Source: Marinitenerispora sediminis (lineage in GTDB: Bacteria > Actinomycetota > Actinomycetes > Streptosporangiales > Streptosporangiaceae). Taken from it: 49,126 bases of DNA. The notes under the pieces were generated by a model. That model had not been told where the DNA came from. It saw nothing but the letters and a program-made list of their open reading frames with translations, and made no database searches. Numbering within the stretch: position 1 is the first letter of the stretch; each line of letters begins with the position of its first letter. Below are positions 16,229-26,083 of this stretch, one piece after another. The position numbers were made by a program, and so were the translations under genes. The stretch spans positions 1 to 49,126 of the forward strand of contig NZ_QEIO01000026.1 of the NCBI RefSeq assembly GCF_003336425.1. The letters run 5' to 3'.

Positions 16229-16344
16229 GCTGCCTGCCGCGGGACGCCAGTGGTAGGCCGCCCGCGAGCACTGGTCAGGCCCGCGCACTGACAGGGCATG
16301 TCACTCTTACCGATCGCTAACCCGCATGCGCCACGATGGCAGCC

Positions 16345-17043
16345 ATGAACGCACCCAGCCGAGTCCTGCTCGCCGACGACGACCGCGCCATCCGCGAGTC
16401 CCTCGAACGTGCCCTGCAGCTGGAGGGCTACGAGGTGCGGACCGCGGCCGACGGCGTGCAGGCGCTGGCGTCGGTGCACCGGGAGCCGGTGGACCTGCTG
16501 GTGCTGGACGTGATGATGCCGGGGGTGGACGGGCTCGGCGTGTGCCGGGTGCTGCGGGCCGAGGGGGACCGCACTCCGATCCTCATGCTGACCGCGCGGG
16601 TGGAGACCCCGGACCGGGTGGCCGGACTGGACGCCGGGGCCGACGACTACCTGGCCAAGCCGTTCGAGCTCGACGAGCTGCTCGCCCGGCTGCGCGCGCT
16701 GCTGCGCCGCGCCGCGCCCGTCGTGGAGGGCGAGGGCGGCGAGCCGCCTATCAGGGTCGGCGACCTGCGGATCGAGCCGGGCGCCCGCCGCGTGTGGCGG
16801 GGCGGACGCGAGGTCGACCTGTCCAAGACCGAGTTCGACCTGCTGGAGCTGCTGGCCCGCAACGCCGGCATCGTGCTGGACCACGCCACCATCTACGACC
16901 GCATCTGGGGCTACGACTTCGGTCCGGAGTCCAAGAACCTCGCGGTCTACATCAGCTACCTGCGCCGCAAGCTGGAACCGGCCGGCTCGGCCCCGCTGAT
17001 CCAGACGGTGCGCGGCGTCGGGTACACCATCCGACCGCAGTGA
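16345..17043 (+). CDS. mprA: MprA-like response regulator (OmpR/PhoB family)
   Basis: A 232-residue regulator. The receiver domain (about 1-115) has acidic-pocket residues in LLADDD, phospho-acceptor Asp55 (VLDVMMPG), switch Thr83 and Lys105 (KPF). The winged-helix output domain (about 135-232) ends in SYLRRKLEP...TVRGVGYTIR, the OmpR/PhoB signature. Similarity is greatest to mycobacterial MprA, which answers envelope stress. An in-frame ATG three codons upstream (16336) is equally possible; neither has a convincing Shine-Dalgarno sequence. The histidine kinase follows 17 bp downstream. The promoter/terminator pair at 16156-16228 lies upstream and could influence it. Confidence 0.88.
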   Translation: MNAPSRVLLADDDRAIRESLERALQLEGYEVRTAADGVQALASVHREPVDLLVLDVMMPGVDGLGVCRVLRAEGDRTPILMLTARVETPDRVAGLDAGADDYLAKPFELDELLARLRALLRRAAPVVEGEGGEPPIRVGDLRIEPGARRVWRGGREVDLSKTEFDLLELLARNAGIVLDHATIYDRIWGYDFGPESKNLAVYISYLRRKLEPAGSAPLIQTVRGVGYTIRPQ

Positions 17044-17060
17044 GGGGACCGGCGCTGGAC

Positions 17061-18551
17061 ATGTACGGTTCGACCGGCACTCCCGGTACACCCGGCACTC
17101 CCGGCACTCCCGGCCCTCCCGGCGACGGCCGGCCGGCCCAGGCCGCGCCGCGCCTGGCGCGCCGGTTCGAGGACATGTCGCTGGGCACCCGGTTCGCGGT
17201 GTCGTTCGCGCTGGTGGCCGCCGCGGTCATCATCCTGGTCGGCTCGCTGGCCTACAACGCCGCGGCCCTGCTCATCCGCACCGACGCCCAGCAGGAGTTC
17301 GACTCCACCGTCGCCGGGCTCGCCAGCGACCTGCGCTCCTCCGCGCTCGGCGACGGCGGCATCGGCCAGCTCGGCCTGCTGCACTCCGAGACCTTCACGT
17401 TCCAGCTGCTGTCGCCCACCGGCAACGTCTCCGTCCCGGTCAACGACCGCAACCAGATCGAGGTCCTGCCCGTCACCCCCTCGGACCGCGCCGTCGCCGC
17501 CGAGACCGCGGCGGGGGTGGTGCGCACCCGTGAGGACCACGCCAACGGCGAGACGTACCGGATCGCCACGATCTCCTACGGCAACGGCCGCGGCGCCGTG
17601 CAGATCGGCCAGCGGCTGTCGCCGATGGAGCGCATGCTCGACTCGATGGCCTGGCAGATGGTCGCCGTGGGCGCGGTCGTCCTGCTGTGCGCCGGCGGCG
17701 CCGGGTGGCTGATCGCCCGGCGGGTCACCGGCCGCCTGGTGCGGCTGACCGAGGCGGCGGAGTACGTGGGCTCCACCGGGCGCATCGACGTCGCCGCGCC
17801 GGACGCGGGTTCCGGCTCGCGCGACGAGGTGGGCCGGCTGGGCCGGGCGTTCGACGCCATGCTGTCCCGCCTCGCCGCGTCCAAGGAGGACCAGCGCCGC
17901 CTGGTGCAGAACGCCTCCCACGAACTGCGCACGCCGCTGACCAGCCTGCGCACCAACGTCAGCGTCATGAAGCGGTTCGACCGGCTCTCACCGGACGCCC
18001 AGCGCCGGCTGATCGACGACCTCCAGGGCGAGACCCGCGAGCTCACCGACCTCGTCAACGAGCTCGTGGAGCTGGCCACCGAGACCCGGGAGGACGAGGC
18101 CCCGCAGGAGGTCTCGCTGCGCGAGCTGGCCCGCAGTGTCGCCGCGCGGACCGGGCGGCGGACCGGCCGCGAGATCATCGTGGACGCCGACGACAGCGTG
18201 GTGTTCGGCCGGCCGCACGCGCTGGAGCGCGCGCTGTCCAACCCCGTGGAGAACGCCGCGAAGTTCGACACCGAGCGCGCCGGCCCCATCGAGATCGTGA
18301 TCCGGGCGGGCCGGGTCGAGGTCCGCGACCGCGGGCCGGGCATCGACCCGAACGAGCTCGGGCACATCTTCGAGCGGTTCTACCGCGCCACGTCGGCCCG
18401 CAGCATGCCCGGTTCCGGGCTCGGCCTGTCGATGGTGCACGACATCGCCACCGCGCACGGCGGCCGGGTCTTCGCCGGCAACCGCCCGGGCGGCGGCGCC
18501 GTGATCGGCTTCGAACTGCCGCTCGCGCACCCCGGGGGCGCCCACCGGTGA
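17061..18551 (+). CDS. mprB: MprB-like sensor histidine kinase
   Basis: A 496-residue membrane kinase. A short cytosolic N-terminus with Gly-x-Pro repeats precedes TM1 (about 48-70), an extracytoplasmic sensor region of about 130 residues, TM2 (about 200-220), HAMP, and a HisKA domain with phosphorylated His287 in QNASHELRTPLTSLR. The ATPase domain has its N-box in NPVENAAKFD, then DRGPGID (G1), FERFYRATSAR (F-box) and SGLGLSMV (G2). It would phosphorylate the adjacent regulator. MprB homologues sense envelope stress and connect to SigE and DegP-like proteases; an HtrA gene lies at 29400-31235. An alternative ATG at 17175 (MSLGTRF) would remove the repeat and is preceded by GAGG. Confidence 0.88.
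   Translation: MYGSTGTPGTPGTPGTPGPPGDGRPAQAAPRLARRFEDMSLGTRFAVSFALVAAAVIILVGSLAYNAAALLIRTDAQQEFDSTVAGLASDLRSSALGDGGIGQLGLLHSETFTFQLLSPTGNVSVPVNDRNQIEVLPVTPSDRAVAAETAAGVVRTREDHANGETYRIATISYGNGRGAVQIGQRLSPMERMLDSMAWQMVAVGAVVLLCAGGAGWLIARRVTGRLVRLTEAAEYVGSTGRIDVAAPDAGSGSRDEVGRLGRAFDAMLSRLAASKEDQRRLVQNASHELRTPLTSLRTNVSVMKRFDRLSPDAQRRLIDDLQGETRELTDLVNELVELATETREDEAPQEVSLRELARSVAARTGRRTGREIIVDADDSVVFGRPHALERALSNPVENAAKFDTERAGPIEIVIRAGRVEVRDRGPGIDPNELGHIFERFYRATSARSMPGSGLGLSMVHDIATAHGGRVFAGNRPGGGAVIGFELPLAHPGGAHR
17076..17123 (+). repeat. Tandem 9-bp repeat encoding (Gly-Thr-Pro)n
   Basis: Four copies of GGCACTCCC or near copies, plus one GGCCCTCCC, encode a collagen-like GTPGTPGTPGTPGPPG at residues 6-21 of the kinase. 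This repeat can slip, so length variation between strains is expected. Confidence 0.75.
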
Positions 18552-18927: not shown

Positions 18928-19244
18928 CGCTCGCTCCCCCTCTCGGTCCCGCTCCCGGGCCCCTGCTCCCCGCCCGGCGGCTCCGGGTCGGTGCGCCGGG
19001 CGACGAACCGGGCCACGCTCACCGAGCCCACGAACCCCAGCAGCGACACCACCAGCAGCACGGGCAGCAGCGTCGGATCACGGTGGAAGGCCGCGAACGT
19101 GCCGATCCCGGCGATCGTGGCGGCGAGCACGACGTCCACCGACAGCGCCCGGTCCAGGATGGACGGGCCCATCACCAGCCGGGCCATGCTGAGCAGCGCC
19201 GCCGCTCCCAGCAGCACCTCGATCGCGATCCACACGGCCGTCAC
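18924..19244 (-). CDS. mnhF: Mrp Na+/H+ antiporter subunit F
   Basis: A 106-residue protein with three hydrophobic helices. ARLVMGPSILDRALSVDVVL is the MnhF signature (GPxxxDRxxxxD). The C-terminal 25 residues are hydrophilic and rich in Gly, Pro and Glu. The GTG start overlaps the mnhE stop (GTGA), and the stop overlaps the mnhG start, so the three small subunits are translationally coupled. Confidence 0.92.
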   Translation of the reverse strand: MTAVWIAIEVLLGAAALLSMARLVMGPSILDRALSVDVVLAATIAGIGTFAAFHRDPTLLPVLLVVSLLGFVGSVSVARFVARRTDPEPPGGEQGPGSGTERGSER

Positions 19245-19831
19245 CGGGCACCCCGCTCTCCGCCGGCCGCCTCCAGGAGCCGGATGTCCTCTCGGGTGCC
19301 GAACGCGCGGACCACCCGCTCCTCCAGCCGCAGTACGTCCGCCCGGGCGGCGTCCGCCGCGGCGGCGTTGGCCGCCCCCAGCACGTGGACGAACAGTGTC
19401 CGCGTGGCGTAGCGGACCTCGACGAGCACGCTGCCCGGCACCACCGACAGCGCCACGGCGGTCCCGGTCAGCATCAGATCGGACCGGGTGCGCAGCGGGA
19501 CCCGGATCACCGAGCTGTGCGGTACCCGGCCGAACGCGAACGTGTACCGCAGCACCCGGGCGCTCGCCAGCACGATGTCCACCGCCGTCCGCGCCAGCAG
19601 CCGCACGCACGCCCACGGGCGCAGCCGCAGAGTGGAGTCCACCGCCGGCATCGGGAAGGCCAGCAGCACGGCCAGGCCGACCAGCACGCCCGAGAGCAGC
19701 ACGCCCGCCGACACCTCGTCGTAGAGCATGGCCCAGACCACGACCAGCACGCCGAGGGTCGGCAGGTGGACCGCCCGGCGGCCGACCCGCAGCCGCGCCG
19801 GCGGGCGGGGGCGGTCACTCGGCGCCGTCAT
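19241..19831 (-). CDS. mnhE: Mrp Na+/H+ antiporter subunit E
   Basis: A 196-residue protein with two or three N-terminal membrane helices and a cytosolic domain. PHSSVIRVPLRTRSDLMLTG and SVVPGSVLVEV are the conserved MnhE segments (SLTPGT-like). It overlaps mnhD by 4 bp (ATGA). It is an ancillary subunit; in other bacteria it is needed for assembly of the full Mrp complex. Confidence 0.92.
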   Translation of the reverse strand: MTAPSDRPRPPARLRVGRRAVHLPTLGVLVVVWAMLYDEVSAGVLLSGVLVGLAVLLAFPMPAVDSTLRLRPWACVRLLARTAVDIVLASARVLRYTFAFGRVPHSSVIRVPLRTRSDLMLTGTAVALSVVPGSVLVEVRYATRTLFVHVLGAANAAAADAARADVLRLEERVVRAFGTREDIRLLEAAGGERGAR

Positions 19832-21501
19832 GACGTTCCTCCCGGGAAGACCGCGGTGATGTAGGGGGCGCGTGCGAGCAGTTCGGCCGCGGCGCGGTCG
19901 CAGTATCCGATCAGCGGCCCGGCGAACAGCGTGAAGGCGAGCCCCAGGAGCACCAGTCCCGCCGTCGCGCCCACCATGGCCGCGGGCAGGGAGGTCGACG
20001 TCACGATCCTGCGCCCGCCGAGCGTCGACGCCCGGGCCACGGTCCGCGCGGCCGGCGTGCGCACCCGCGACGACGGGCCCACGGCCTCGCCCGGGCCGAA
20101 CGCCGAGGTCGGCGACTCGTCCTCCTCGGTCTCCTCCAGCACGGTCCCGGGCGCGATCACCGCCCCCGCCGCCGGCGCCCGCCAGAAGGCGTGGTTCCAG
20201 ACCCGGGCGATCGCGTACAGCGTCAGCAGGCTGGTCAGCACCGATCCGGCGACGAGCGTGTAGGCCAGCGGGGTGCCGGCCTGCACGCCGGCCTGCATCA
20301 GGCCGAGCTTGCCGAGGAACCCGGACAGCGGCGGGATGCCGGCCAGGTTCATCGCGGGCACGAAGAACAGGATCGCCACCAGCGGCGAGAGCCGCGCCAG
20401 CCCGCCCAGGTCGGTCATGGAGGTGCTGCCGCCGCGCCGCTCGATCAGACCGGTGACCAGGAACAGCCCGGTCTGCACGGTGATGTGGTGCGCGACGTAG
20501 TAGACGGCCCCGGCCAGTCCGTGCGCGCTGCCCAGCGCGATCCCGAACACCATGTAGCCGATGTGGCTGACGAGCGTGAACGACAGCAGCCGCTTGATGT
20601 CGGTCTGCGCGACCGCGCCGAGGATGCCCACCACCATCGTGGCCAGCGCCGCCCACATCAGCAGGTCGTCCACCCGGCCGTCCGGGAACAGCAGGGTCTG
20701 GGTGCGGATCATGGCGTACACGCCGACCTTGGTCAGCAGGCCGGCGAAGACCGCGGTGACCGGTGCCGGGGCGGTGGGGTAGGAGTCCGGCAGCCACGCC
20801 GAGAGCGGGAACACCGCGGCCTTGATCGCGAACGCGGCGAGCAGCATCACCTGGAGCACCAGCCCCAGCTCCGCGGGGACCTCGGGCAGCCGGACCGCCA
20901 GCTGCGCCAGGTTCACCGTGCCCGCCGCCGCGTAGGTGAGGCCGACCGCGATCAGGAAGAGCAGCGACGACAGCAGGGACACCACCACGTAGGTGGCGCC
21001 CGCGCGGATGCGCGCGTGGGTCCCGCCGATGGTCAGCAGCACGTAGCTCGCGGTCAGCAGGATCTCGAACCCCACGTAGAGGTTGAAGAGGTCGCCGGCG
21101 AGGAAGGCGTTCGACACGCCCGCCACCAGGATCAGGTACGTGGGGTGGAACACCGCGAGCGGGGCCACCTCGTCCTCGTCCGCCAGGCCCTGGCCGATCG
21201 AGTAGACGAGGACGCCCAGCGTGATCGCCGCGGAGACCGTGACCATGAGCGCCGACAGCCGGTCGGCCACCAGCGCGATGCCGATCGGTGCGCCCCACTC
21301 GCCGACGTGCACGACCTGCGGCCCGTGGGCGTCCACCCCGAAGAGCAGCACCAGGCCGATGGCGAGCACCGCCGTGAGCGCCGCGACGCTCATCGCGCGC
21401 TGCAGCCGGGCGAGCCGGGTGCCGATCGCGAGTTTGAGGCCGGCGGTGAACAGCGGCAGGACGACCGGCAGCGGAACCAGGTAGTGCAGGATGTCGGCCA
21501 T
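19828..21501 (-). CDS. mnhD: Mrp Na+/H+ antiporter subunit D
   Basis: A 557-residue polytopic protein homologous to complex I proton-pumping subunits (NuoN/NuoM). The core contains FNLYVGFEILLTASYVLL (the conserved membrane Glu), KAAVFPLSAWLPDSYPTAPA (the Lys of the channel) and a second conserved KLGL after GIPPLSGFLG. It forms the proton path with MnhA. An acidic loop (EETEEDESP) near residue 455 interrupts two membrane segments. It begins the base after the mnhC stop. Confidence 0.94.
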   Translation of the reverse strand: MADILHYLVPLPVVLPLFTAGLKLAIGTRLARLQRAMSVAALTAVLAIGLVLLFGVDAHGPQVVHVGEWGAPIGIALVADRLSALMVTVSAAITLGVLVYSIGQGLADEDEVAPLAVFHPTYLILVAGVSNAFLAGDLFNLYVGFEILLTASYVLLTIGGTHARIRAGATYVVVSLLSSLLFLIAVGLTYAAAGTVNLAQLAVRLPEVPAELGLVLQVMLLAAFAIKAAVFPLSAWLPDSYPTAPAPVTAVFAGLLTKVGVYAMIRTQTLLFPDGRVDDLLMWAALATMVVGILGAVAQTDIKRLLSFTLVSHIGYMVFGIALGSAHGLAGAVYYVAHHITVQTGLFLVTGLIERRGGSTSMTDLGGLARLSPLVAILFFVPAMNLAGIPPLSGFLGKLGLMQAGVQAGTPLAYTLVAGSVLTSLLTLYAIARVWNHAFWRAPAAGAVIAPGTVLEETEEDESPTSAFGPGEAVGPSSRVRTPAARTVARASTLGGRRIVTSTSLPAAMVGATAGLVLLGLAFTLFAGPLIGYCDRAAAELLARAPYITAVFPGGTS

Positions 21502-22332
21502 CTAGTCGCTCCCCTGGAGGTCGCTGTCCTCGGCGCGGGCCAGCCGCTCGCGCTCGGCCCGGATCGCGGTGTGCAGCCGCCGCTTCTGCGCGCGGACCCG
21601 CCGCCGGAGTTCGCGGCGCATCTCCCGCTCGGTCTCCCGGTCGATCCGGCGGTGCTCGCGCAGGCCCTCCCGGCAGGACTCGACCTCCCGGCGCAGGTCC
21701 GCCACGCTGTCCTGGCGGGCCTGGCGCGCGTCGCGGATCCGCTGCGCCACCTCCGCGTCGTCGGCGCCCGCACCGCCCCGACCGCCCGCGCGCAGCGAGG
21801 CGCGCAGCTCCCGGTCGGCGGCCAGCATCCGGGAGCGCAGCGCGGCCCGTTCGGCGGCCTCCCTGCGGTCCTGCGCGGCCATCCGGTCGCGTAGGTCCGC
21901 GCGCTGCGTCCGGATCTCGGCCCGGAGTTCGCGCCGCTGCCGCCGGATCTGCCGGCGCAGCTCCCGCCGACCGCCGCCGAAGGCGATGCGGCGGTCCTCG
22001 GCGTCGTCCTGGACGTCGTCGTTGCCCTGGAGCTGCCAGCTGCGGTACGCCATGGCGAGCAGGAACGCGGTGACGCCCAGCGTGATGACGATCGCGGTGA
22101 GGATCATCGCCTGCGGCAGCGGGTCGGCCATCTCCGACTCGGGGGTGAGCCCGAGCAGCGGCGGCCCGCCCGCGGTGCCGCCCGTGGACAGGATCATCAG
22201 GTTGATCCCGTTGCCCATCAGGATCACGCCGAGCAGCACCCGGGTGAGGCTGCGCTCCAGCAGCAGCATCACGCCCACCGCCACCAGCACACCGGTGACG
22301 GCCACCAGGAGAAGGGTCGGGGTGTCGTTCAC
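21502..22332 (-). CDS. mnhC: Mrp Na+/H+ antiporter subunit C with long Arg-rich coiled-coil tail
   Basis: A 276-residue protein. Residues 1-100 are an ordinary MnhC/NuoK-like subunit with three helices (GVILMGNGINLMILSTGG, then PLPQAMILTAIVITLGVTAF). Residues about 114-276 are an extra cytosolic tail in which I count about 48 Arg among roughly 163 residues. Its heptad-like pattern (for example RRELRRQIRRQRRELRAEI) predicts two coiled-coil stretches, about 121-181 and 191-266, split by a Gly-rich hinge (GGRGGAGA). MnhC is usually 110-180 residues, so the tail is exceptional. It is in frame with no shift, and the next gene starts directly after its stop, so it is genuinely translated as part of MnhC. 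The GTG start overlaps the mnhA stop. Confidence 0.9.
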   Translation of the reverse strand: MNDTPTLLLVAVTGVLVAVGVMLLLERSLTRVLLGVILMGNGINLMILSTGGTAGGPPLLGLTPESEMADPLPQAMILTAIVITLGVTAFLLAMAYRSWQLQGNDDVQDDAEDRRIAFGGGRRELRRQIRRQRRELRAEIRTQRADLRDRMAAQDRREAAERAALRSRMLAADRELRASLRAGGRGGAGADDAEVAQRIRDARQARQDSVADLRREVESCREGLREHRRIDRETEREMRRELRRRVRAQKRRLHTAIRAERERLARAEDSDLQGSD

Positions 22333-25274
22333 GGGGTGACCTCCTCGGCCTGCCGCTCGGTCGGGCTCTCCTTCTCCAGCTGCTCGTCGACCCGCGCGCC
22401 CAGGCTGCGCAGGATGTCGAGCACGAGCCCGATCACGAGCAGGTACACGCCGAAGTCGAACACCAGTGCCGACGTCAGGTGCAGGTCCCCGACCAGCGGG
22501 ATGTGCAGGTCGAACGCGCCGCCGGCCAGGATCTCGGTGCCGAACACCGCACCGGCCAGCGCGGTCCCGGTCGCGATCACCAGGCCCATGCCGATCAGCG
22601 CGCCCGGCTGCGCCCGGACGGCCGCGTACAGCTCGTAGCGGCCGCCGGCGAGGTAGCGCACCATCAGGCCGAGCCCGGCCACGATCCCCCCGGCGAAGCC
22701 GCCGCCCACGTCGGTGTGCCCGACGAACAGCAGGTAGACCGAGAGCAGCATGACCACCGGGAACAGCGCGCGGGCGATCACCTCGAACACGATGGAGCGC
22801 CGTTCCCGGGCCAGCGCCTGCGCGCCGGGCAGCCAGAGCGGGTTCCAGCGCGGCTCGACCCGCAGCTGCCGCGGAGCGGTGGTGAGCACGGTCGGCTGCC
22901 ACGGGGCTCCCGCGCTGCCTGCGGTTCCGTCGGCCACCGGGGCCGCGGCCAGCGGCACGGCGCGCTCGCCCGGCCGGCCGCGCACCGGCTGGGTGCGCCG
23001 GCGCAGGAACATGAGGCTGGCGACCCCCGCGGCGGCGACCGCGAGCACGGAGATCTCGCCCATCGTGTCCCAGGCGCGCAGGTCCACGAGGATCACGCTG
23101 ATGATGTTCGTGCCGCCGGCCTCCCGCGCGGCGTCGGGGAACCCGGTCGAGATCGACTCGGCGCGCCGCCCGGCCAGGGCGAAGTAGGCCATCGCGGCGA
23201 CGAGCAGCCCCGTCGCCGCTCCGATCAGCAGGTTGCCGAGCCGGCGGCCGCGCAGCGCCGGCGTGCTGAAGCGGGGCGGCAGCCGGCGCAGCACCAGCAC
23301 GAACACCACCAGGCTGACCGTCTCGACGAGGAACTGGGTGAGTGCCAGGTCCGGGGCGCCCTGCAGGGCGAACAGCGTCGCCGTTCCGTAGCCGGTCAGC
23401 CCCACCAAGACCACCGCGAACAGCCGGCGGCGCACCCGGAGCACCCCGAGGGCGGCGACGACTGTGATGATGGCCGGGACGAGCTGCACGGGGGAGTCCC
23501 ACAGCCGGACCGGCGGCGCCTCCATGGTCCACAGCCGGCCCTGGATGATGGGGATCCCGCTCAGCACCACCACCGTGACCAGCGTCGTGCCGAGGTAGAT
23601 CGGCAGCGAGCCCCGCTGGGTGAAGCCGGTGACCTGCAGCGCGAACGAGTCGACCGCCGCGAGCGTGCGGCGGTACACGCGGTCGGCGTCCACGAGCTCC
23701 AGCCGGTGGCCGAGCCAGGCCACGCGTTCGCGGAGGCCGAACAGCACCAGGCCGCCCGCGACGCACAGCGCCGAGAGGGCCAGCGGCAGTCCGACACCGT
23801 GCCACAGCGCCAGGTGCTGTGCCTCGGCCCCGCCGGTCCAGCGCACCGTGTCCGCGTACCCGGCCACCACGGGGTCCACGGCACCGGCGAGCGGGCCGCC
23901 GGCCAGGCTCAGCGCCGCCAGCACCACGGCCGGCGCCACGAACAGCGGCCCGGGGGCGTGCACCGGCGTGGGCGCGACGTCCGGCTTGCCGGCGAAGGCG
24001 CCCCACAGGAACCGCAGACTGTAGCCGACCGTGCACACCGACCCCAGCACCACCGCGGCCAGGACCACCGGACCGGCGGGCCCGGTGTGGGTGAGCGCCT
24101 CGAACGCCGCCTCCTTCGCCACGAACCCGGCGGTGGGCGGCAGCCCGGCCATCGAGGCGAGCGCCACCACGGCGGTCCAGAAGGTCACGGGCATCGCCCG
24201 CCGCAGACCGGACAGCTCCCGCAGGTCGCGCGTCCCCGTGCTGTGGTCGATGATGCCGACCACGAGGAACAGCGGCGCCTTGAACAGCGCGTGCGCGCAC
24301 AGCATGGCGAGGCCGGCCAGCGCGGCGTCGCGGGTCCCCGCTCCGAGCAGGACGGTGAGGAAGCCGAGCTGGCTGACGGTGCCGTAGGCCAGCAGCAGCT
24401 TCAGGTCGTACTCGCGCAGCGCCCGCCACCCGGCGAGGACCATGGTGACGGCACCGAACGCCAGCGCCGTCACCTGCCAGACCGGCAGGTCGCCGAACGC
24501 GGGGGTGAGCCGGGCGACCAGGTAGACGCCCGCCTTGACCATCGCGGCGGCGTGCAGGTAGCCGCTCACGGGGGTGGGCGCCTGCATGGCGGCGGGCAGC
24601 CAGAGGCTGAACGGCAGCAGCGCGGACTTGGACAGCGCCCCGACCAGGACCAGCGCCAGGGCGACCGTCACCACGGTCCCGCGCGGCGGGTCGGCGAGGA
24701 TGTCGGAGACCAGGTAGCTGCCGGCCGCCTCGCCGAGCATGATCACGCCCACCAGCATGGCCAGACCGCCCAGCGTGGTGACCACCAGCGCGGTCATGGC
24801 CGCCCGGCGGCTCTCCCGCAGTTCGGCGCGGTGGCCGATCAGCAGGTAGGAGAAGACCGTGGTCAGCTCCCAGTAGACGAAGAGCTGGATGAGGTCGTCG
24901 GCTAGGACGAGGCCGAGCATCGCCCCGGCGAACGCGGTCAGTACGCCGGCGAACCGGCCGAGCCCCGGCTCGTCGTCGGAGAAGTAGCGTGCGCAGTAGA
25001 CGAGGACCAGGGTGCCGATCCCGGCCGCGATCAGCGTCATGACCAGGCCGAGCGCGTCCATCCGGAACGCCAGGGTGAGGGAGAACTCCGGCGCCCACGG
25101 GATCCGCGTGGTCACCGGGTGGCCGGCCACGACGCCGGGCGCGTGCAGCAGCGCCCACACCGCGGCCGCTCCGGGCACGGCGGCCAGCATGAGGAAGGCG
25201 GTGCGTCCCCACCGGCGGACGAGGAGCGGGGCCAGCAGGGCGGCGGCGAAGTGCGCGGTCAGCAGCGCGAGCAC
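22329..25274 (-). CDS. mnhA: Mrp Na+/H+ antiporter subunit A fused to subunit B
   Basis: A 981-residue polytopic protein. The N-terminal two thirds resemble complex I NuoL (FVYWELTTVFSYLLIG, KSALLPFSLWLPAAMQAPTP with its key Lys, and GLPPTAGFVAKEAAF). This is followed by the MnhA C-terminal domain (GAPDLALTQFLVETVSLVVF) and an MnhB domain (about 830-960: VMLLSVYLLFVGHTDVGGGF, then FDFGVYLLVIGL). No separate mnhB exists, so the fusion supplies it. The GTG at 25274 follows GGAGGGAGG; the open frame extends upstream only through non-conserved sequence. It is first in the operon mnhA(B)CDEFG. Confidence 0.93.
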   Translation of the reverse strand: MLALLTAHFAAALLAPLLVRRWGRTAFLMLAAVPGAAAVWALLHAPGVVAGHPVTTRIPWAPEFSLTLAFRMDALGLVMTLIAAGIGTLVLVYCARYFSDDEPGLGRFAGVLTAFAGAMLGLVLADDLIQLFVYWELTTVFSYLLIGHRAELRESRRAAMTALVVTTLGGLAMLVGVIMLGEAAGSYLVSDILADPPRGTVVTVALALVLVGALSKSALLPFSLWLPAAMQAPTPVSGYLHAAAMVKAGVYLVARLTPAFGDLPVWQVTALAFGAVTMVLAGWRALREYDLKLLLAYGTVSQLGFLTVLLGAGTRDAALAGLAMLCAHALFKAPLFLVVGIIDHSTGTRDLRELSGLRRAMPVTFWTAVVALASMAGLPPTAGFVAKEAAFEALTHTGPAGPVVLAAVVLGSVCTVGYSLRFLWGAFAGKPDVAPTPVHAPGPLFVAPAVVLAALSLAGGPLAGAVDPVVAGYADTVRWTGGAEAQHLALWHGVGLPLALSALCVAGGLVLFGLRERVAWLGHRLELVDADRVYRRTLAAVDSFALQVTGFTQRGSLPIYLGTTLVTVVVLSGIPIIQGRLWTMEAPPVRLWDSPVQLVPAIITVVAALGVLRVRRRLFAVVLVGLTGYGTATLFALQGAPDLALTQFLVETVSLVVFVLVLRRLPPRFSTPALRGRRLGNLLIGAATGLLVAAMAYFALAGRRAESISTGFPDAAREAGGTNIISVILVDLRAWDTMGEISVLAVAAAGVASLMFLRRRTQPVRGRPGERAVPLAAAPVADGTAGSAGAPWQPTVLTTAPRQLRVEPRWNPLWLPGAQALARERRSIVFEVIARALFPVVMLLSVYLLFVGHTDVGGGFAGGIVAGLGLMVRYLAGGRYELYAAVRAQPGALIGMGLVIATGTALAGAVFGTEILAGGAFDLHIPLVGDLHLTSALVFDFGVYLLVIGLVLDILRSLGARVDEQLEKESPTERQAEEVTP

Positions 25275-25636
25275 GTGCGGCCTCCCTCCTACCGGTGTCC
25301 GGCGGCCCGCGCGGGGCGCGGTCGGGCGGGTCCGCGGCGGCCGCCGTCCGGCGGGGGCCACGCGGTGGCGGGGACACCGGCGGCCGGAGTCGGCGCCGCC
25401 TCCCCGAGCACGGTCGACAGGGGACCCACCCATCACTCCCTTCTCGGCCCGCCCACCGGCCGCGTTCCGCGTGGCGCGGTCCGCCAGAGCCGACCCTAGG
25501 CGCGTCGGGCGCGGTGCCCGGGCCGGGCGTCCTGGCACGGGGCCGGTGGTTTACCTCAAATTTATGTGCGGTAGCTATTAGATGTACATGCTACTTAATC
25601 GAAGATTGTCCGGAACGCGCGGGGTGGGACTGCGGT
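25275..25636. other. Divergent intergenic region mnhA / marR
   Basis: The 362 bp between two divergent starts. The half near mnhA is GC-rich without clear elements. The 60 bp near marR are strikingly AT-rich and carry a probable operator (25571-25594). Both promoters must lie here, so the MarR protein could also influence the antiporter operon. Confidence 0.6.
25571..25594. promoter_or_regulatory. Probable MarR operator in AT-rich promoter
   Basis: The inverted repeat GTAGC (25571-25575) / GCTAC (25590-25594) encloses the perfect palindrome ATGTACAT (25582-25589). The surrounding 55 bp (about 25550-25605) are AT-rich and 40 bp upstream of the marR start, as expected for an autorepressed promoter. 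Confidence 0.55.
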
Positions 25637-26083
25637 ATGGATCGGGACGGCGAGGCGGCGTTCGCCGAGTTCGCGGCCGCCTGGAGCGACCTCGTCGGCG
25701 CGGTGGTCCGCGCCAAGGCGCGGGGCGCCCACAACGGTGAGCACGGCCTCACCATGGGCCAGGCCCTCGTCATGCACGCCATCTCCGGCCTGGAGCGCCC
25801 CACCGTCGGCGCCGTGGCCCACGCCCTGCACATCGCCTCGCCGTCGGCCACCCGCATGCTCCAGCAACTGGAGCGCAAGGGGGTGGTGGCCCGCCGCCGC
25901 TGCGCCGAGGACGAGCGCACCATCCTGGTCAGTGTCACCCCGCACGGCGAGGAGCTCCTCGCCGAGTGGCGCGCGCGGATGGCCGAGCGCCAGCGGCAGC
26001 TCTTCGACCGGATCGCCCCCGAACAGCGGCCGGTGCTCGTCGCGCTGCTGCACGACATGGGCGCGGTGATCGACGACCTCTGA
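25637..26083 (+). CDS. MarR-family transcriptional regulator
   Basis: A 148-residue winged-helix regulator. The recognition region is TVGAVAHALHIASPSATRML then QQLERKGVV. The wing is RRRCAEDERTILVSVTPHGEELL, with the Asp-Glu-Arg turn of MarR proteins. The ATG at 25637 gives the normal family length; the open frame continues upstream only through the operator and the mnhA promoter. It is transcribed alone, divergent from the Mrp operon, so its targets may be itself and the antiporter genes. The effector is unknown. Confidence 0.85.
   Translation: MDRDGEAAFAEFAAAWSDLVGAVVRAKARGAHNGEHGLTMGQALVMHAISGLERPTVGAVAHALHIASPSATRMLQQLERKGVVARRRCAEDERTILVSVTPHGEELLAEWRARMAERQRQLFDRIAPEQRPVLVALLHDMGAVIDDL

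Follow-up and report, generated by a model that had tools for sequence, protein, structure and literature searches.

Mrp antiporters are closely related to the membrane arm of complex I, and MrpC is usually described as a bare three-helix subunit. The solved MrpC chains (6z16_C, 7qru_C and 7d3u_C) have the same three-helix fold as residues 1-108 of the MrpC analysed here, but at 109-137 aa they are too short for the 168-residue tail that follows those residues. Actinobacterial MrpCs without this tail, for example those of Cellulomonas, Micromonospora and Glycomyces, share with the tailed proteins both the core and a juxtamembrane stretch ending in DDxED, but they have shorter acidic tails that lack the Arg/Glu hairpin of our protein; 15-130 residues follow the DDxED motif, and Asp/Glu exceed Arg/Lys in all 47 untailed named loci. 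The initial annotation of this DNA took MrpC to be normally little more than three helices, which is correct for the three-TMH core and does not hold for untailed actinobacterial MrpCs with these additional residues. According to PMC9568556, group II Mrp systems are those in which MrpA and MrpB are fused, and the group II complex of Dietzia is monomeric and lacks the MrpE dimerisation domain. The lateral helix HL of MrpA/NuoL is a long amphipathic helix on the cytosolic side that braces the antiporter complex (PMC7419157), but HL is part of a different subunit and lies along the surface of the membrane (PMC9568556), whereas the MrpC tail is predicted to extend from TMH3 and is clade-specific.

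The window (the whole stretch of Marinitenerispora sediminis DNA that was analysed, 49,126 nucleotides) carries on its minus strand a six-gene group II mrp/mnh operon in the order mnhA(B), C, D, E, F, G, whose features are collected in Table 1. The assignment to group II follows from the MnhB domain, which makes up residues 882-1005 of the window MrpA. The mnhC stop codon TAG lies at 21504-21502 and the ATG of mnhD starts at 21501 with zero gap, so the initial annotation was right that mnhD begins directly after the tailed mnhC. The MrpC core matches Pfam Oxidored_q2 (PF00420) at 8.1e-22 (77.2 bits, cut-off 26.1) and the three solved chains above by both sequence and fold (Z 11.3-11.9). Among curated families, the complete protein scores highest with NCBIfam NF005929 (PRK07946, a 204-position model for Na+/H+ antiporter subunit C), at 237.7 bits against a cut-off of 157 and 184.5 bits for the core by itself. 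The protein is thus an MrpC/MnhC by its curated-family core and by its place between mrpA(B) and mrpD. NF005929 also covers tail residues 1-85 weakly (23.5 bits) and ends before the second arm of the tail; its name is silent on a tail, but since it spans part of one, long MrpCs are already present in the databases. A gene for a MarR-family regulator (window 25670-26083, plus strand, PF01047) is divergent from the operon, and a response regulator (PF00072, PF00486) and a histidine kinase (from reading of the ORF) are encoded at 16336-18551 on the plus strand, convergent with mnhG. The same genome has a second MrpC (L002, G000:C409:52044-52382), whose tail is just 18 residues after DDxED, and a second mrp operon is therefore probably present.

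Table 1. Features of the mrp/mnh operon and of the MrpC tail in the window.
Feature	Coordinates	Strand	Basis or remark
mnhA/mrpA with fused MnhB domain	22329-25433	minus	start is the one used in searches, putative
mnhC/mrpC	21502-22332	minus	GTG start, 276 aa
MrpC/MnhC core, residues 1-108, three-TMH NuoK-like subunit	22009-22332	minus	Pfam, NCBIfam and PDB matches
C-terminal extension, residues 109-276, 168 aa, predicted antiparallel helical hairpin	21505-22008	minus	
One predicted continuous helix, residues 71-183, TMH3 into first arm	21784-22122	minus	AlphaFold2, block pLDDT 81-95 except at the join
Predicted hairpin tip, residues 184-192, within the most variable stretch and close to the centre of the natural deletions	21757-21783	minus	block pLDDT 63 for residues 181-190
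Predicted return helix, residues 193-273	21514-21756	minus	block pLDDT 78-96 for residues 191-270, 55 for 271-276
Most conserved tail part, IRAERERLARAEDSDLQGSD, residues 257-276, predicted membrane-proximal base	21505-21564	minus	entropy, pN/pS
mnhD/mrpD	19828-21501	minus	ATG adjoins mnhC stop
mnhE/mrpE	19241-19828	minus	PF01899, 3.1e-27; start inferred
mnhF/mrpF, 106 aa	18924-19244	minus	PF04066, 3.2e-12; start inferred
mnhG/mrpG, 116 aa	18577-18927	minus	ORF; named by position and sequence reading

The tail (residues 109-276, window 22008-21505) is rich in arginine, but is it a real part of the protein? Its 168 residues include 48 Arg, 1 Lys and 35 Asp/Glu, and the local DNA is ~75-81% G+C, which readily gives Arg-rich open frames, so composition alone is weak proof of a tail. 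Frames in such DNA are often both open and Arg-rich, and the tail might on that account be a sequence artefact or a wrong frame that is no part of MrpC. Against this, the frame, the motifs and the approximate length repeat across many separately sequenced genomes, and tail omega is low in the least diverged pairs (below); we consider an artefact practically excluded. The complete tail occurs in 11 further genomes at 42-71% identity to the window protein, which bears out the in-frame Arg-rich extension reported by the initial annotation. An MrpC core precedes the tail in frame at all 36 fetched loci that match the tail profile (L112-L147), where the tails are 166-170 residues long, and the full-length tails (n=36) have 162-170 residues. 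Because it is conserved across genomes, the tail is, judged from sequence, a genuine in-frame part of MrpC and not a chance reading frame.

Among 100 relatives, 45 have MrpC matches; 12 of these (window genome included) have the complete tail and 2 more have an 88-residue form, where only the best loci of the set were fetched and read and the remaining matches were judged by coverage alone. Eight of the 12 fully tailed genomes have a further MrpC match that reaches no farther than query residue 117. In named loci at least 511 stretches were confirmed, and the best 80 comprise 33 tailed and 47 untailed MrpCs; as these are the best rows of a longer list, the ratio should not be read as a frequency. 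The 33 tailed loci are from Nocardiopsis (14), Nonomuraea including [Actinomadura] parvosata (14), Streptosporangium (3), Thermobifida fusca (1) and a MAG (1). At 1e-6 a search with the tail profile found matches in 90 of the family's 297 genomes, spread over 11 of its 68 genera, which is an undercount since G025, G012 and G028, with diverged or short tails, were missed at that threshold. The MrpC of G025 (L013, G025:C55:143826-144611) is strongly diverged, and its tail is still 162 residues long. The same profile gave 20 matches in 394 sampled genomes of the class (a sample that includes the window's own family, and in which only the best first-pass candidates were scored); all 20 are in the window's family and none lies outside it. 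No PDB chain matched the tail profile at E 0.01.

A 106-row tree was built from the MrpC core joined to MrpD; on it, the 42 tailed rows form one side of a single branch (SH-aLRT 99), and tail presence needs one change on this tree versus ~33 in shuffles. MrpD was located by tblastn in all 106 loci, with L045 just 36% filled. Across that branch from the tailed rows lie nine rows from this family that have no tail; one of them is the second MrpC of the window genome. An earlier 80-row tree gave the same single-branch split with support 96; it was built without five loci treated as copies by name (L007, L009, L011, L012 and L042) and without 26 loci (3 of them tailed) that lacked MrpD by the rule used, so most untailed family rows were missing from it. 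On these comparisons the tail is a clade-specific extension within one actinomycete family and was apparently gained once, where the direction is our reading and change counts cannot separate gain from loss. It had been noted at the outset that the tail might prove to be widespread and already described. It is widespread within one family, but a literature search conducted mainly at the level of abstracts, with subscription papers mostly outside reach, found no published description of an MrpC tail, and we rate it a newly recognised variant on a known subunit.

The single-chain AlphaFold2 model, made with 51 aligned sequences, has helices at residues 7-24, 29-50, 71-183 and 193-273 (mean pLDDT 83.3, pTM 0.48). 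The tail is thereby predicted to be an antiparallel two-helix hairpin with ~80 residues per arm and a length of ~120 Å, or ~12 nm (80 residues at 1.5 Å per residue). The pLDDT values are 65 and 74 at residues 101-120, the join after TMH3, which makes a straight stalk uncertain. A 202-aa short form from N. harbinensis is modelled with helices at 68-148 and 154-194 (pLDDT 81.2, pTM 0.41), so that its two predicted arms beyond the membrane are alike in length and shorter than those of the window protein. Both pTM values are low, which counts against the predicted hairpin. Residues 73-276 of the full model align with the antiparallel Smc coiled coil 5xg2 over 201 residues (Z 9.9, rmsd 7.6; Z below ~13 is common for long helices), and because this alignment extends over both arms it suggests that the two arms pack against each other. 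The Smc segment and chain E of the FtsE/FtsX/EnvC complex 8tzl both have two long antiparallel helices, as in the predicted tail, but neither matches the tail profile at E 0.01 and probably only the arrangement is common; the fold search, which used the whole-protein model and so says little about the tail by itself, gave for the tail only such common two-helix arrangements.

The conserved hydrophobic positions of the tail have a best period of 3.62 in both whole arms (reached by 0 of 1000 shuffles), where the power is 0.160 and 0.145 versus 0.027 and 0.033 at period 3.5, and their autocorrelation peaks at 4, 7, 11, 18 and 22. In shorter segments 3 and 24 of 1000 shuffles reach the signal, with best periods of 3.62 and 3.74 (C-terminal), and in the one covering positions 12-45 the contrast is weaker (0.211 versus 0.146 at 3.5). 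A canonical heptad coiled coil (period 3.5) is ruled out over the whole arms by the 3.62 value. The heptad-like spacing of the initial annotation was therefore not found over the whole arms, but its helical, coiled-coil-like arm is supported: the tail is conserved in sequence and a helical hairpin is predicted. Mirroring the hydrophobic positions gives 177 as the top sum (1 of 1000 shuffles), then 173 and 166, whereas the predicted tip implies ~160; with an 11-residue spacing, mirror sums 11 apart are hard to distinguish, so the pairing register is ambiguous. The annotation had also placed a Gly hinge in the arm. The window tail does have 5 Gly at tail residues 70-90, but the other 35 full-length tails have 0-3 there; the Gly-rich hinge is thus peculiar to the window MrpC, where it falls at the variable predicted hairpin tip.

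Natural deletions bear on the hairpin as follows: ten shortened tails of 83-130 residues keep both ends (the set has 11 sequences, of which L156 is full-length; among near-duplicates, L149 and L154 are one residue apart, and L152 and L155 match L063 and L072). The best-fit centre of the deletion is at 68-82.5 in nine of the ten, and the predicted tip is at tail positions 76-84; the tenth (L017) has its best centre at 123.5, with an uninformative range. Central deletions are in part expected because both tail ends are conserved, and we take them as supporting the hairpin, short of proof.

Conservation varies along the tail. Mean entropy is 0.79-1.09 at residues 257-276 versus 2.0-2.3 at tail residues 73-108; pooled pN/pS is 0.47 in the core, 0.54 in the last 49 residues and 1.08 in the tail middle; and tail positions 57, 61, 68 and 109 are invariably hydrophobic. 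Of 595 pairs, 374 are moderately diverged at synonymous sites, and in these the median omega is 0.78 for the tail and 0.36 for the core, with tail values of at least 1 in 149 of the 374; over 517 pairs the tail median is 0.88, and 291 lie below 1. The 45 least diverged pairs listed have omega of 0.04-0.43 in the tail and 0.04-0.45 in the core, and in the least diverged Nocardiopsis pairs listed the tail gives 0.04-0.26. We think that the higher, uncorrected omega and pN/pS figures are likely overestimated, because third-position G+C is 0.96-0.98 and limits visible synonymous change (saturation). Our reading of these sequences is that the tail consists of a conserved base and a loosely conserved rod, with its length controlled. 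When the two tail ends are compared with each other their likeness scores 32, while the maxima after shuffling are 13.7 ± 3.0; the shuffles destroy periodicity, and shared pattern and composition may be the sole source of this likeness.

What would such a tail do? The position of Arg27 in a published structure and the presence of three TMHs would put it on the cytosolic side. The explanation that we favor, and hold at about an even chance, is a clade-specific cytosolic hairpin that continues TMH3 as a stalk or brace and whose base docks on MrpC/MrpD/MrpA. TMH3 would run on into the cytosol as the first arm and the return arm would bring the C-terminus back toward the membrane surface, so that the constant part would be at the junction and the variable part would project deep into the cytosol. 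The conserved acidic C-terminal base might dock at the MrpC/MrpD/MrpA junction and brace TMH3, and the loosely conserved rod might be a spacer, possibly touching a neighbouring Mrp complex or a cytosolic partner; it is this combination of a constant base at the junction with a variable rod directed outward that favors docking and bracing. The predicted helix also forms one piece with TMH3, next to the ion path of MrpC/MrpD/MrpA, and for that reason the stalk could sense or gate, with binding or crowding of the rod, or docking of the base, altering antiporter activity; we think this quite unlikely, but if true it would be a peripheral regulatory arm on the Mrp complex. The initial annotation had likewise suggested that the arm could tether or gate the Mrp complex, and it may do so.

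The main functional rival to docking and bracing is dimerisation, and we infer both: the hairpins of two Mrp complexes could pair into dimers or rows and so replace the MrpE dimerisation domain. Long regular helices are suited to assembly, the window Mrp belongs to group II, and that domain is the one absent from the monomeric Dietzia complex (above); but 47 of the best 80 named loci, whichever Mrp group each belongs to, do without the hairpin, and we regard oligomerisation as rather unlikely. It is also unlikely, in our estimate, that the tail is mostly filler, gained once, kept for mnhC-mnhD translational coupling and, apart from folding stably, doing little. The abutting stop and start codons, the pN/pS of the tail middle and the loss of 37-83 residues in several lineages would fit this, but coupling needs no 168 residues, and most untailed loci, whose tails are far shorter, have a 4-base overlap between the mnhC stop and the start that follows; the narrow length range of the full-length forms, the four always hydrophobic positions and the low tail omega of the least diverged Nocardiopsis pairs argue against filler as well. 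The initial annotation had suggested that the arm, being basic, could bind anionic lipid or nucleic acid, and such an arm might, for example, lie along the membrane. An 11-residue hydrophobic spacing occurs in some surface-seeking helices, the window tail has a net charge of +14, and the net charge is positive for 26 of 40 tails; it ranges, however, from -6 to +14 over the 40, and 12 of the 14 Nonomuraea tails carry no net positive charge, which does not support a conserved basic arm as the general function. In addition, the conserved hydrophobic positions are sparse (even the richest stretches have ~2 in every 11 residues) and a hairpin is predicted for both the window and N. harbinensis forms, and we judge binding of this kind very unlikely.

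A ~12-nm predicted cytosolic stalk on a subunit beside the ion path, apparently gained once, is a natural experiment on the acquisition of cytosolic parts. Tailed MrpC belongs to one of at least two Mrp systems in many of these genomes, and the tailed Mrp is open to testing in cultured organisms such as Thermobifida fusca and Nocardiopsis. By length, no clear counterpart of the tail was found in MrpD or MrpE: the median lengths in tailed versus untailed loci are 552 versus 525 for MrpD and 187.5 versus 216.5 for MrpE, from rough gene calls in which some ORFs are clearly over-long. Many Cellulomonas-type MrpDs end in acidic low-complexity tails, and the listed MrpD ends of the tailed clade are mostly without them. 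The MrpC match at L025 (G059:C6:439028-439567) reaches query residue 198 only through a TGA, and its open frame has a short tail. The MrpC of Timonella senegalensis (L056:4001-4705) has a different, acidic cytosolic tail of ~130 residues.
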